A DNA stretch of 64,000 nucleotides, from positions 124,001 through 188,000 of the forward strand of contig NZ_JBGCCU010000019.1 of NCBI RefSeq assembly GCF_041261445.1. Direction: 5' to 3'. The notes below the pieces were generated by a model. The model ran no database searches. It was not told where the DNA came from and worked only from the letters and a program-made list of their open reading frames with translations. The DNA comes from Catenulispora sp. EB89. GTDB lineage: Bacteria; Actinomycetota; Actinomycetes; Streptomycetales; Catenulisporaceae. This document shows, piece after piece, positions 3,867-47,647 of this stretch; positions within the stretch are counted from its first letter, which is position 1; each line of letters starts with the position of its first letter. A program made the translations under genes and the position numbers.

Positions 3867-5933
3867 CTAGCCTCGCGGGACCTCCGCCGTGACCGAGACC
3901 GAGAACACGTACCGTGGCTTGACCTGTGCATCGTGGCCATTCGCGAAGTTAACCGTCTCTGGCGACGCGGACCCGATCCATGTTCCCAGCAAGAGTTCCG
4001 GCAGGAACTGTTCGATCGGAATCCCGGAGTGCCGGACATCGTTGTAGCCGACCGTGAAGCTCGCCTGATGGAGTGCTCCACGGCCCCGCCCCATGCTGTG
4101 GATCCAGCGTGCCGGGACACACGGCAGTTCGCCGGTGGAGGCGATGAGCCAGTAGTTGGCAGTCTGGGACCGTTCCAGTAACGCAGTTAACTGTGGGACA
4201 TCGATCCGCCATGACTCACCCTGGTTGGCGGTTGTGCCGCCGAGGAGCGCCTGCGACTTCTTGATCTGGACCAGTTCTGCCAACTCCAGGACTGCGACCT
4301 TCGGTATATCTACTGTTAGCAGCAATGCGATATCGCAGCCCCACAGCGCTTCTTCGGACTTCACCGTCGGCCGTTGCTCGACCTTGATAAGTCCCGACAA
4401 CGGGGTGCCGCCAGCGGTCAGGCGCAGTTCGGCGTCGCGGAACGCCGACTCGAACTCGTGCAACAAAAAACCCGTCACGAGCTCTTCTTGGGCGCGGCCT
4501 TGTTGCAGTATGAAAGATCGGAACCGGTCTGCGGCGCTGCGAAGGCTGTTGCCCAGCGTTCCTTGGACCGCTAGTGACCCCAGCCAGATATTTGACAGCG
4601 GGGTTAGCGGGTGGGGGTAGATCGGGACGCCGCCTGCCGGCAGCTCTCCGCGGGTTTGTACCACGATGCCCTGTGCCTGGTCCCGGACCTCGGCGTCGTC
4701 GTCGCTTTCGGCGAGTCCGGTCAGGACGTCCAAGACCTGTGAATGCAGTCCTGCAGCCTCGGCAAGCAGGTCCAGGATGTCAGAGCCGAAATCTTCTGCG
4801 TGGGCGAGCATGTGCTTGGCAGAGAGCGTGAAGGCGTCTGGGTAGTGGCGTACATACTCGCGCAGTCGGGACAAGACCCCGTCGCGTCGGACTTTGTGTT
4901 TCCAAGTGTCTCGGTATTTGCGAAGCTGAAGCAGATCGGCCCACACAAACACCAGGCCGCATAACGTAGTTTCCTCAACAGCTGCTGTGTCCCGCGCCAT
5001 GATAGTAGCGACGGAGGCTGCGGTAGGTGCGAGACCGGACATGTGCAACTCGACAGCCGCGACCCAGCCAATCTTGACGAGAAGCTCGCCTCGGGCCGAG
5101 AGCGGCAAGAATGGCAGTAGGTCCGACGCACTCGAATCCGGCGTCCCGGTGAAATCGATCGGTGGCAGACCATCGAGTATGGATTCGTCTGCGACCAAAC
5201 GCTCCGCCGCCTCGGCGTCGATGAGGGCAGCTGTGACGAGGAACCGGTCACGTCCGATGCCGACCAGGCTCGCAGCTTCGAGCACCGCCTCCGCGTCAAT
5301 TGTCTGCAGGGCAGCACGTGCGACGGACACAGCCTGTGGCGACTTCCACAGCGCCGCATTCCAGTTGGGCGCAGGAGTCCCATATACGTACCGACCGGCC
5401 TGTGCGAACCATCGCTTCATCGAAGAAGGAGCTGGCCGACCAGGGACGTGCCATCCGGGCGCGTTGTCCGGTGGTTGGGTTTCCGCCCAGGTGATCAGAA
5501 GTCGAAGCAGAGCCGGATCGTAGTGCGCGCCGTCGAGTAGGAACCTCAGCTCGGTGGCGCTGATCGGCCAGTCGACAGCTTGCGCGGCGGTGATGATTGT
5601 GTAGACGGCGACGGCCAAGTCGCCGCCGGTACCGTTCGGTTCCCTGTCCTGCTCGGACATCTGCCAGTATCGAAAGGGCAACGATAGGCCTGCCTGGTCG
5701 CTCGTCAAGGCGGAGCGAATCTGGGCCCATCCCTCGTCCAGCAGCTGCGCCAAGAGACGTTCGCCGTCGGCGCGACGTAGCAGCTGACGCAGTGTGATTT
5801 CAGCCGCCGCCGGGCTGCCGTCAACCCTTGACGCAACTTGACGCCAAATAGCGCGCTTCGCGCGTGATCTGGCCGGGAGATCGGTTAGCTGAGCCGTCAG
5901 CCAAACCTCGAAGTCGTCTTGCCACCGACCCAC
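3867..5933 (-). CDS. Large protein with PD-(D/E)XK-like nuclease C-terminus, 688 aa
   Basis: The GTG start at 5931-5933 has GAGCGGAAG about 8 nt upstream. Residues 1-430 or so are helical with no domain I can name. From about 485 the pattern is that of a restriction-endonuclease-like fold. There is an acidic helix (LLHEFESAFRDAEL), then EEALWGCDIALLLTVD with Asp534, then LAELVQIKKSQ with Q556-x-K558 filling the (D/E/Q)xK position. A WRIDVPQLTALLERSQ helix and a YWLIAS strand follow. In this superfamily the Asp and (E/Q)xK residues bind metal and cut DNA. I infer a DNA-targeting, possibly antiphage, role from the motif and from its position in an xthA-flanked accessory segment. No partner methylase or helicase is visible. 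A degenerate, non-cleaving fold is possible. Confidence 0.6.
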   Translation of the reverse strand: MGRWQDDFEVWLTAQLTDLPARSRAKRAIWRQVASRVDGSPAAAEITLRQLLRRADGERLLAQLLDEGWAQIRSALTSDQAGLSLPFRYWQMSEQDREPNGTGGDLAVAVYTIITAAQAVDWPISATELRFLLDGAHYDPALLRLLITWAETQPPDNAPGWHVPGRPAPSSMKRWFAQAGRYVYGTPAPNWNAALWKSPQAVSVARAALQTIDAEAVLEAASLVGIGRDRFLVTAALIDAEAAERLVADESILDGLPPIDFTGTPDSSASDLLPFLPLSARGELLVKIGWVAAVELHMSGLAPTAASVATIMARDTAAVEETTLCGLVFVWADLLQLRKYRDTWKHKVRRDGVLSRLREYVRHYPDAFTLSAKHMLAHAEDFGSDILDLLAEAAGLHSQVLDVLTGLAESDDDAEVRDQAQGIVVQTRGELPAGGVPIYPHPLTPLSNIWLGSLAVQGTLGNSLRSAADRFRSFILQQGRAQEELVTGFLLHEFESAFRDAELRLTAGGTPLSGLIKVEQRPTVKSEEALWGCDIALLLTVDIPKVAVLELAELVQIKKSQALLGGTTANQGESWRIDVPQLTALLERSQTANYWLIASTGELPCVPARWIHSMGRGRGALHQASFTVGYNDVRHSGIPIEQFLPELLLGTWIGSASPETVNFANGHDAQVKPRYVFSVSVTAEVPRG

Positions 5934-28556: not shown

Positions 28557-28960
28557 TTTTTACGGCTTCGCCTAACGTTTGGTGACCTCGCAGGGGGACG
28601 CAGTTCGGTTGCGCGACTCGGGTCGCGCCGGCGGCCGGCGGTTTGCGCGGGGTCGCCTTTCCGCAGGGGTGTGATGGTTCGGGGTTGAAGATCAAAACCG
28701 TGGCGGGCACAACCGCTGCCCAAGGAACCGGACGGGTTCCGTAGCGGGCCGGGTTTGGTCGCCCGGGCTGCGGTCCGAGTGTGGGAAAACCGGTTTGTGT
28801 CCCTCGGTCGCGACGTCACCCGGAGGGAACCACGACGGTCCGGGGATATCAAGGCGAAGGCCGGCGGTCGTGCGCGGCGGCGGCGGTTGCGTACGCCTTG
28901 ACATCCCCGGACCGTCGAGGTTGGCAGAGCCTGCCGCCGCAACCGAGGAACACAAACCGA
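28557..28960 (+). repeat. Structured non-coding repeat, copy R1
   Basis: The 28317-29234 interval has no convincing gene; most of it is this element. Head: TTTTTACGGCTTCGCCTAA (28557-28575), GTTTGGTGACCTCGC (28577-28591) and CGCAGTTCGG (28599-28608), identical in sequence and spacing to copies R2 and R3. A roughly 180-nt middle with small hairpins follows. The tail is a two-storey hairpin. The outer stem is 28791-28811 with 28939-28959 (19 of 21 pairs). The inner stem is 28833-28856 with 28894-28917 (23 of 24). Between them on the 5' side is a 21-nt block, 28812-28832, containing CCCGGAGGGAACCA, matching R3 at 20 of 21 positions. Stem sequences differ from R2/R3 while pairing is kept, which argues for selection on structure. 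Whether it is an RNA or a mobile DNA hairpin is open. Confidence 0.75.
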
Positions 28961-43958: not shown

Positions 43959-45244
<1,286 letters not shown>

Positions 45245-45248
<4 letters not shown>

Positions 45249-46054
45249 ACCGGCTTCAGGACGTTCTCAAGAGCGCGCGGGCGGAGAACCGCGCCGTGCT
45301 CATCGGCTACCTCCCGGCGGGCTACCCGACGGTCGACGGCTCCATCGACGCCATGCGCGCCATGGTCGAGGGCGGCTGCGACATCATCGAGGTCGGGCTG
45401 CCGTACTCCGACCCGGCGATGGACGGGCCGGTCATCCAGGCCGCCGCCGACCAGGCGCTGGCGCGCGGCGTCGGCACGCCGGACGTCATCCGCGCGGCCG
45501 GGGCGGTCGCCGACACCGGCGCGGCGGCGCTGATCATGTCGTACTGGAACCCGATCGAGCACTACGGCGTCGACCGCTTCGCCGCCGAGCTCGCGGCGGT
45601 CGGCGGAAGCGGGGTGATCACGCCGGACCTCATCCCCGAGGAGGCCGGACCGTGGATCGCCGCGACCGGGGCGCACGACATCCGGCGGGTGTTTTTGGTC
45701 GCGCCGAGCTCCTCGCCGGAGCGGATCGCGCTGACGGCGCAGGCCTGCGACGGGTTCGTGTACGCCGGGGCGGTGATGGGCGTCACCGGGGCTCGCGAGC
45801 AGGTCGGGCACGCCGCACGGGCGCTCGTGGAGCGGACCAGGCAGGCGACCGAGCAGGCGGTGTGCGTCGGGCTCGGGGTGTCGACCGGGGACCAGGCCGC
45901 GGAGATCGCGGCGTACGCGGACGGCGTGATCGCCGGCTCGGCGTTCGTGCGGCGACTGCTGGACAACCGCGACCCGCGCAAGGGCGTCGAGGCGGTGCGG
46001 GAGCTGGCCGCGGAGCTGGCCGACGGTGTGCGGCGGGGGAGTAAGGGGCGGTAG
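45245..46054 (+). CDS. trpA: Tryptophan synthase alpha subunit
   Basis: This 269-aa (beta-alpha)8 barrel splits indole glycerol phosphate to indole, which is channelled to TrpB. Motifs: [20 protein letters not shown], the catalytic Glu/Asp region [45 protein letters not shown], and [16 protein letters not shown] with phosphate-binding glycines and [15 protein letters not shown] 45245 overlaps the trpB stop. No clear terminator follows; about 160 bp later the inverted-repeat region begins. Confidence 0.96.
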
Positions 46055-46216
46055 GGGGCGGTAGGAGGCGCGGGGCGCTTTCTGCGTGGGTGGTGTGGGT
46101 GGTGTGGTTAGTGTGGTCGGTCGTGCGGCTGGGCTTCGGGCTCGGCCGCATGATCGGTATTTGTATGTGTATCTGTATCGGGGCGGGCGGCGGTTTGCCT
46201 GCGGGTTTTAAGAGCC

Positions 46217-46640
46217 TTTTTACGGCTTCGCCTAAGGTTTGGTGACCTCGCTGGGTGGCGCAGTTCGGTGGTGTGCCGCTGGTGACGCTGGCGGCCGGCG
46301 GTGTTCGTGTCCACGACCGCGCACAGGTCCGAGTCACTGCGCATGCGTTGCGTAGGCGGCGATCGTCGGGCGTGGTGGGCACCGAAAGTCAAGAGCAGGC
46401 GCCTCCGGCGGGGGCACTCGAGACTCTGAGGGATCCCCAACCCCCCGCCTCGGCGGCGGTTCGAGTGTTGGTCGCCTCGTCCCGGATCCCTCGACGCTGA
46501 CGTCGCCCTAAAGGGAACCATCCCGGCCTGGCGGTGTCCAGCCGGATCACACGCTGCTGTGGTCGAGCTGCGTTCGGCCGGACACCGCCAGTCCGGGCTG
46601 GTTGTGCAAGCACCGCCGACAGCGACGAGGGATCCGGGAC
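46217..46640 (+). repeat. Structured non-coding repeat, copy R2
   Basis: Head 46217-46268 is identical in its three blocks and spacing to R1. Outer stem: 46479-46499 with 46620-46640 (20 of 21 pairs). Inner stem: 46522-46544 with 46575-46597 (21 of 23). The conserved 5' internal-loop block GACGTCGCCC...AGGGAACCA is 46499-46520, one base longer than in R1/R3. Stems are unrelated in sequence to R1 except for the TCCCTCG near the outer-stem top. Confidence 0.78.
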
Positions 46641-47101
46641 AACCCCCACTGTGTGAAAACCATGCACGAGGTGCCGCAGAGCCGGGCCGGCGGCGCCGGT
46701 CGCCGCGCGAGGTTGTCAGGTACCGCGCGGTCTACAAGCAAAGGCCGGTCGTGGCGATGGGGCAGGAGTCTCGGATGCGGCTGCGATGCGGCTGTGGCTT
46801 GGGCCGGAGCTTGAGTCGGCGGCTTGACCTTCGCCCGACGATGGCCAACCGCCAGGCACCAGCGCAGCCAGGCACCAGCACCAGCACCGCGAACCGGGAA
46901 CCGCGCGTCGGTCGCCGACTGTCCCGTCGCCGGTCGGTTCCCGCCACGGCCTCGCGGCCTCGGTAGCCTGCGTGTCGGCAGCGAGCCCCCACAGCCCGGC
47001 CGATGCCGCATCCTCACTCGCCGCCCCACCTACACGACCAGCGCGGCTAGCCTTAAGCATCCCCACGGCACCTCGTGCATGGTTTTCACACAGTGGGGGT
47101 T

Positions 47102-47525
47102 GTCCCGGATCCCTCGTCGCTGTCGGCGGTGCTTGCACAACCAGCCCGGACTGGCGGTGTCCGGCCGGACGCGACCCGACCACAGCAGCGTGCGATGCGG
47201 CTGGACACCGCCAGGCCGGGATGGTTCCCTCCGGGCGACGTCAGCGACGAGGGATCCGGGACAAGGCGACCAACACTCGGACCGCCGCCGAGGCGGGGGG
47301 TTGGGGATCCCTCAGAGTCTCGAGTGCCCCCGCCGGAGGCGCCTGCTTTTGACTGTTGGTGCCCACCACACGCGGCCGCCACCCGCCCACCCGACGCGTG
47401 CGCAGTGACTCGGACCCGCGCGCGGTCGTGCCCAGACCGGCCGCCAGCCGCCAGCGCAACCTGCGGCACACCACCGAACTGCGCCACCCAGCGAGGTCAC
47501 CAAACCTTAGGCGAAGCCGTAAAAA
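47102..47525 (-). repeat. Structured non-coding repeat, copy R3
   Basis: This is the minus-strand partner of R2. Head blocks are at 47507-47525, 47491-47505 and 47474-47483. Outer stem: 47102-47122 with 47242-47262. Inner stem: 47145-47167 with 47198-47220. The internal-loop block 47222-47242 matches R1 at 20 of 21 positions although the stems around it differ from R1. R3 is very similar to R2 along its whole length. Confidence 0.78.
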
Positions 47526-47550
47526 GCCTGTAAACCCACAAACCAATCGC

Positions 47551-47589
47551 AGCCCTGCCACCCAGCCCTGCCACCCAGCCCTGCCACCC
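47551..47589. repeat. 13-bp tandem repeat, three copies
   Basis: AGCCCTGCCACCC occurs three times in a row just outside the right arm of the inverted repeat, followed by a partial AGCC. It is probably a neutral length-variable tract. Confidence 0.85.
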
Positions 47590-47647
47590 AGCCGAGCCAC
47601 CCCACCACTCACGCTCAGTAGCTGAGAAACCGCTAGGAAGTTCCCCC

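Follow-up and report, generated by a model that had tools for sequence, protein, structure and literature searches.

The window, that is, the whole 64,000-nt stretch of Catenulispora sp. EB89 DNA analysed here, contained three members of one repeat family, R1, R2 and R3. The head TTACGGCTTCGCCTAANGTTTGGTGACC was exact at 28560-28587 (+), 46220-46247 (+) and 47495-47522 (-), and had no match in 100 shuffles of the window. The R1 head, a T-run with a conserved block, occupied 28557..28610 on the plus strand (the orientation of an earlier note on this DNA) according to the exact match and the three-copy alignment, and the R2 and R3 heads were placed by the exact match at 46218..46260 (+) and 47483..47525 (-). 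The earlier note had reported three separate copies with common head and tail blocks. Their places were confirmed, the alignment supported the common blocks and the sequence family was real, but R3 lies on the minus strand and R2 and R3 form a single element. R2 (46208..46676, +) and R3 (47066..47534, -), each running from head to tail, were its left and right arms, as defined by the inverted repeats I1-I3, and the arm repeats matched at 96% over 165 nt, 94% over 142 nt and 86% over 152 nt. Between the arms the inverted-repeat search left a central segment of 389 nt (46677..47065). The inserted DNA, comprising the whole element and low-complexity rims, had approximate limits of 46055..47615, based on the 10-53 nt between the flanks in 8 relatives, and started past the end of the ORF 45059-46054, beyond its stop codon.

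The two-storey tail hairpin described in the earlier note was recovered by inverted-repeat search, at 28791-28861/28889-28959 for R1, and for R2 and R3 with 27-29 nt in each outer arm and 29 nt in each inner one. Each tail corresponded to a cloverleaf, located at 28792..28958 (-) for R1 by a covariance-model match (C19:152792-152958 minus) and at 46478..46641 (-) for R2 and 47101..47263 (+) for R3 by covariance-model match and fold, the strand in each case being the one supported by the G.T/A.C asymmetry described below. Folded on this strand, the tails of R1, R2 and R3 were stable well beyond their shuffles (z -10.3, -9.8 and -10.1), and the R1 cloverleaf reached -117.3 kcal/mol. R1 is a diverged single-arm (type B) copy, and R2/R3 is a double-armed (type A) insertion.

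Type A copies were imperfect palindromes of ~1.1 kb, nine of which aligned over ~1.1 kb. Two arms were joined by their tails, each of them comprising a T-run head, spacer modules and a cloverleaf of ~160 nt, and the match to the own reverse complement was long (72-76%) in four of the six queries shown and partial in the other two. Outside the heads lay imperfect inverted ends of GGCGC type, GGCGCTGCTGACCTATGTGTGGGTG / CACCCACACATCAAGCAGGGGCGCC, with the end pattern GGCGC[CT]..CTG...TGTGTGGG. Such ends were present on 14 two-ended elements (949-2097 bp, one of 260 bp) and were not cleanly seen on R2/R3 itself. The 8 bp outside the ends agreed at six or more positions in 10 of these 14 elements and perfectly in 5, compared with six or more of eight positions in 12 of 182 cross-pairs in the control, and perfect flanking repeats of length 4-7, 9 or 10 were found in none of the 14. 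No recognisable duplication was seen in 4 of the 14, and no clean one in R2/R3. As four of the five perfect duplications were the same word CATTTTGT or its complement in similar context, they may not be independent. C. acidiphila carried its own ~1.12-kb palindromes with related ends. The single-arm type B copies, R1 included, had tandem modules in varying number and a shorter end motif; their ends and duplications are putative. The 260-bp copy (L028:1439-1698) possessed both ends and lacked the cloverleaf, a hint that movement may not need the fold. By eye, some copies (L012/L073 at C10:12961-13074, L075 and L179) apparently sat in the T-run of another copy's head, as nested insertions would.

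The insertion sites were compared among relatives. R2/R3 was absent from the 8 relatives having both flanks on one contig, seven of which showed 10-38 nt between the aligned flanks and no cloverleaf, and one (G003) 53 nt. In the ninth relative, G001, the flanks lay on different contigs, and a single-arm family copy (L298, G001:C29:29800-31842) was found ~210 nt from the same right flank. The site was therefore probably occupied before the own genome (G000) and G001 parted, one form having changed since, so that the window element may be a changed older insertion and not a fresh one. The single-armed state in G001 versus the double-armed state in the window at one site also gives a hint at how inverted dimers form. 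The type B copy L061 was absent in G007, where its flanks were nearly contiguous; G009 and G005 had ~70 nt between the flanks, and G008 and G002 had other sequence of ~1 kb there. In G004 only the right flank was seen, and G001 carried a copy at the same right flank. At that junction L061 and the G001 copy had a common right flank and different left flanks, and their cloverleafs differed by several paired changes (by eye), a possible case of conservation in place, though one copy may have been replaced by a second insertion. At the R1 site, the right flank alone was matched in relatives.

Gene placement was evaluated for 31 heads outside a hand-made list of type A loci, with our own crude GC-phase gene caller, which called a head-side gene for 29 of them and a gene on the opposite side for 9. 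Of the 29 head-side genes, 23 were directed into the element (22 of 29 without the score threshold), and 7 of the 9 genes on the opposite side converged. These heads thus tend to sit where genes end. A bias to the gaps between convergent genes is also described for the pneumococcal BOX and RUP repeats, and the BOX, RUP and SPRITE repeats of Streptococcus are modular, with variable internal units, and folded if transcribed (PMC3049150). By these descriptions, modularity, variable units, folding upon transcription and convergent-gene bias are common to both, whereas the Catenulispora arms are far longer and joined as inverted dimers.

The earlier note had found no common protein frame, and this was borne out in 18 aligned R2/R3-type arms, in which variable columns by codon phase numbered 70/62/67, with no coding signature, and 92 of 98 indels had a length of 1 mod 3. 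A protein-coding relic was not supported by these counts. Nor was the similarity seen to extend into a protein-coding transposon, which the earlier note had named as a further possible refutation: the lone transposase seen in a copy, IS3-like ORFs at L074:1545-2827 (family read from the translation), looked nested in one element copy. The element was without a transposase gene of its own, a feature by which MITEs are recognised. Prokaryotic MITEs are described in PMC10969869 as non-autonomous, with imperfect inverted ends and target duplication, intergenic, and forming a stable stem-loop if transcribed. The present element resembles them in being non-autonomous, in its imperfect inverted ends and 8-bp duplication, in its intergenic insertion and in the stable stem-loop that a transcript would form. 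It differs in being a ~1.1 kb whole palindrome made from two arms, and in a separate cloverleaf of ~160 nt, which shows dense two-sided covariation on a single strand and also occurs alone in another family. Of the possibilities raised earlier, a non-autonomous mobile palindrome was backed by the self-complementarity, GGCGC ends, 8-bp duplications and empty sites, and such sequence features give the family the look of a non-autonomous transposon. Its elements would be moved by a cut-and-paste transposase acting in trans, and type A would have arisen as an inverted dimer.

No transposase with matching ends was found, the ISL3 family being the one examined. ISL3 elements resemble the family in the 8-bp target duplication and in ends beginning GGC. 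One of the three ISL3 matches here had definable ends and an 8-bp duplication; this insertion sequence (L260:1380-3387) had 28-nt ends and a perfect duplication, but its ends, GGCTCTTCGAAGTTAGG..., were unlike those of the element, and ISL3 was rejected as mobiliser.

In the own 11.9-Mb genome, 60 matches of the head pattern (up to 3 mismatches) were found, against 0 in the reversed control. A tail covariance model gave 101 strand-wise matches, equal to 55 places by our count. The search of relatives with this kind of model, proposed in the earlier note, returned matches in 10 of 10 Catenulispora genomes, own included, at numbers on both strands ranging from at least 3 (in a 77%-complete genome) to at least 75. 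It returned none in 29 other genomes of the family and order. In a sample of the class, 2 of 296 genomes matched, own included, the second being G181. A second cloverleaf model matched the own genome only among 396 genomes of the phylum under strict filters. When used by itself, the head pattern had matches in 2 of 99 genomes (own and G001), and its exact contig scan gave no match. Seven contigs of the own genome (C10, C12, C21, C28, C31, C33 and C51) ended less than ~500 nt from a head, and palindromes seem to break the assembly.

The structure of the tail was analysed in two sets of copies. From 116 distinct nhmmer pieces of the own genome and G001, 44 tails were retained, the rest being reverse-strand echoes or pieces, and L005 was removed by hand; two-sided changes occurred in 23 of the 50 predicted pairs. 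In 23 diverse copies (7 from Streptosporangiaceae and 16 from Catenulispora), 96.5% of 943 cells were paired and 28 of 41 pairs carried two-sided changes. The weak match L197, the truncated L205 and the repeat records L201-L204 were left out of set A4. None of 500 shuffles reached the observed value in any of five measures. Structures slid along the alignment paired at 31-48%, a comparison in which the proposed structure is favoured because that alignment was also its source, and related copies count repeatedly. The absence of covariation in further copies had been named in advance as a possible refutation; the further copies did covary. The "unpaired block" earlier described between the stems proved to be a mini-hairpin, itself with compensating variation (CCG.TAAA.CGG, CCC.TAAA.GGG and CCC.GGA.GGG, by eye), and a second mini-hairpin was present between the stems on the other side.

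The strand given in the earlier note was not the folding one. Counted on that strand, A.C cells numbered 53 and G.T cells 1. In a strand-neutral count, in which each copy was aligned with its own reverse complement, the pooled G.T versus A.C ratio on the complement strand was 212:29 cells and 85:18 distinct contexts. The excess recurred in own copies (50:8 cells, 18:3 contexts), other Catenulispora copies (123:20, 41:14) and Streptosporangiaceae (39:1, 26:1). Of 106 sequences, the 103 distinct ones were counted (L202 is the same as L196, and C. acidiphila has two pairs of identical sequences), and the pooled binomial p of ~7e-12 for the distinct contexts is too small because the copies are related. 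The complementary mispairs A.G and C.T were uneven as well: their ratios were 109:22 and 111:15 in the Catenulispora sets, whereas Streptosporangiaceae had 11:17. Judged by the mispairs in the alignments, it is the strand opposite to that of the earlier note which is predicted to fold, with a G.T tolerance specific to that strand. Together with the covariation, this asymmetry supported the earlier claim that the helices covary and that a folded single strand is under selection.

The complementarity could otherwise belong to an ordinary transposon relic, in which the stems are kept complementary by quasi-palindrome self-correction (template switching or arm conversion) and the fold is not selected. 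Palindromes are known to be perfected by template switching, the element is a palindrome and a mosaic over its whole length, and by eye L092 and L075 carry stem halves of different variants that no longer fully match. However, a strand-blind process should give equal numbers of G.T and A.C, contrary to the ratios seen, and the terminal loop is well conserved in the Streptosporangiaceae copies. Strand-biased C-to-T decay was also rejected as the cause of the G.T excess: it would deplete the folding strand of C, whereas over the body this strand is rich in C and A (GC skew -0.15, AT skew +0.32, 41 copies). We consider such a relic unlikely. Selection on a folded strand within a mobile element was preferred, and the cloverleaf complement strand would work as folded RNA, by read-through, or as folded single-stranded DNA.

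Outside Catenulispora, the cloverleaf was found on its own. Among 100 relatives of G181, 7 genomes matched at E<=0.01, with one match each under strict filters; L197, one of the seven, was without the common loop and is doubtful as a genuine member. An exact loop and stem pattern gave 6 records from Microbispora, Sphaerimonospora and Planotetraspora (Streptosporangiaceae). The homology started at the outer stem, and the upstream sequence differed between most loci, L193 and L198 having a common one. Several loci had a common downstream sequence; a piece of it, which we read as a terminator, also occurred without the cloverleaf in Nonomuraea and Streptosporangium. By eye, no conserved promoter was seen upstream of these cloverleafs, so an RNA would need read-through. 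In searches for a plasmid or phage origin, R2/R3 had no match among plasmids, two plasmid-collection records matched the Streptosporangiaceae locus only via the downstream piece, there without the cloverleaf, phages gave no match for that locus and viral contigs none with two exact patterns; this origin was dropped.

The single occurrences bear on a further reading, in which a functional non-coding RNA gene, related to the host or to defence, would have been captured as the cloverleaf and multiplied by a transposon. One match per genome in several Streptosporangiaceae (strict filters) would fit such a gene, as would the compensating changes between G000 and G001 copies at one junction (by eye) and the defence-like neighbours, namely a Cap4 nuclease, a cytosine methyltransferase and a possible restriction helicase, the latter two taken from translations. 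The neighbouring genes differ between loci, a DUF5919-like product being another putative one read partly from translations; this variation and the lack of a visible common promoter count against an RNA gene, as do the tendency of the Catenulispora copies to sit downstream of genes and the wide range of their numbers per genome. Its probability is rated low, slightly below that of the relic. An integron-cassette reading of these loci was dropped, the neighbouring genes pointing either way.

A DNA function of the folded strand, as a hairpin site read single-stranded by a recombinase or replication initiator, has precedents in rolling-circle origins and in integron attC sites, the latter marked by RYYYAAC/GTTRRRY core boxes and an integrase, and the strand-specific fold, the palindromic dimers and the lack of a promoter recognisable by eye accord with it. 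The 8-bp duplications, in contrast, would point to DDE transposition of double-stranded DNA, and the few genes identified nearby included neither a recombinase nor an initiator. We hold this reading to be improbable. Near one Microbispora cloverleaf lay a reverse-transcriptase ORF and a Cap4-type nuclease (L199:2405-4015 and 4409-5494). The long hairpin and this single reverse-transcriptase ORF (RVT_1), ~4 kb from the cloverleaf at one Streptosporangiaceae locus, are what a retron msr-msd remnant has in its favour. The retron-like reading suggested earlier was not supported, as no Rfam family reached threshold and the element is mobile with target duplications, and it is the least credible of those considered.

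At the gathering threshold Rfam had 0 families in the whole window, and in permissive scans (R1 at E<=5; L193, L016 and L002 at E<=1) all listed matches were below the gathering score, the best being mir-2941 (E 1.1e-4) and MIR1151 (0.039). HEARO, the IscB omega-RNA (Rfam RF02033), is a structured RNA in a mobile element, some copies of which are without the gene. The present family resembles it in having a structured fold in a mobile element and gene-less copies, but HEARO was not among the matches listed by the permissive scans, and it was rejected since no Rfam family reached threshold. In the literature searched, no description of the element was recognised.

Taken together, a non-autonomous mobile element family of Catenulispora with a folded-strand cloverleaf module is the best explanation, and we regard it as rather probable. 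The element is best read as MITE- or BOX-like, with a new single-strand fold that is under selection and may be either RNA or DNA. For the cloverleaf itself a read-through RNA module is favoured, which would most likely act in stability or in protein binding and so favour the persistence of the element. More tentatively, and with the balance somewhat against it, the cloverleaf could represent a self-standing class, as yet undescribed, of structured RNA or single-stranded DNA. Such a class would spread on mobile DNA, keep a strand-specific function in each copy and be common to Catenulispora, with many copies, and Streptosporangiaceae, with single ones. The usual view of bacterial MITEs is that of transposon remnants in decay. 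In the present mobile element the pairs are conserved via dense compensating changes, and the mispairs that are tolerated reveal the strand. Selection on a folded strand can therefore be tested within a parasitic repeat, and the fold is a candidate for a new structured motif spanning two actinobacterial families.

The cloverleaf was itself interrupted in some copies. In 8 loci an element of ~179 nt with the ends CAATGCCGCGTAGTTA was found inside the inner stem. The complete cases (L004:872-1050, L007:2290-2468 and L041:516-695) were each flanked by a 10-bp repeat, and one end was seen in L014, L048, L053, L064 and L083. This is possibly a second small transposon targeting the cloverleaf hairpin; a ninth match (L205) sat elsewhere, and the loci surveyed were those chosen for carrying the family.
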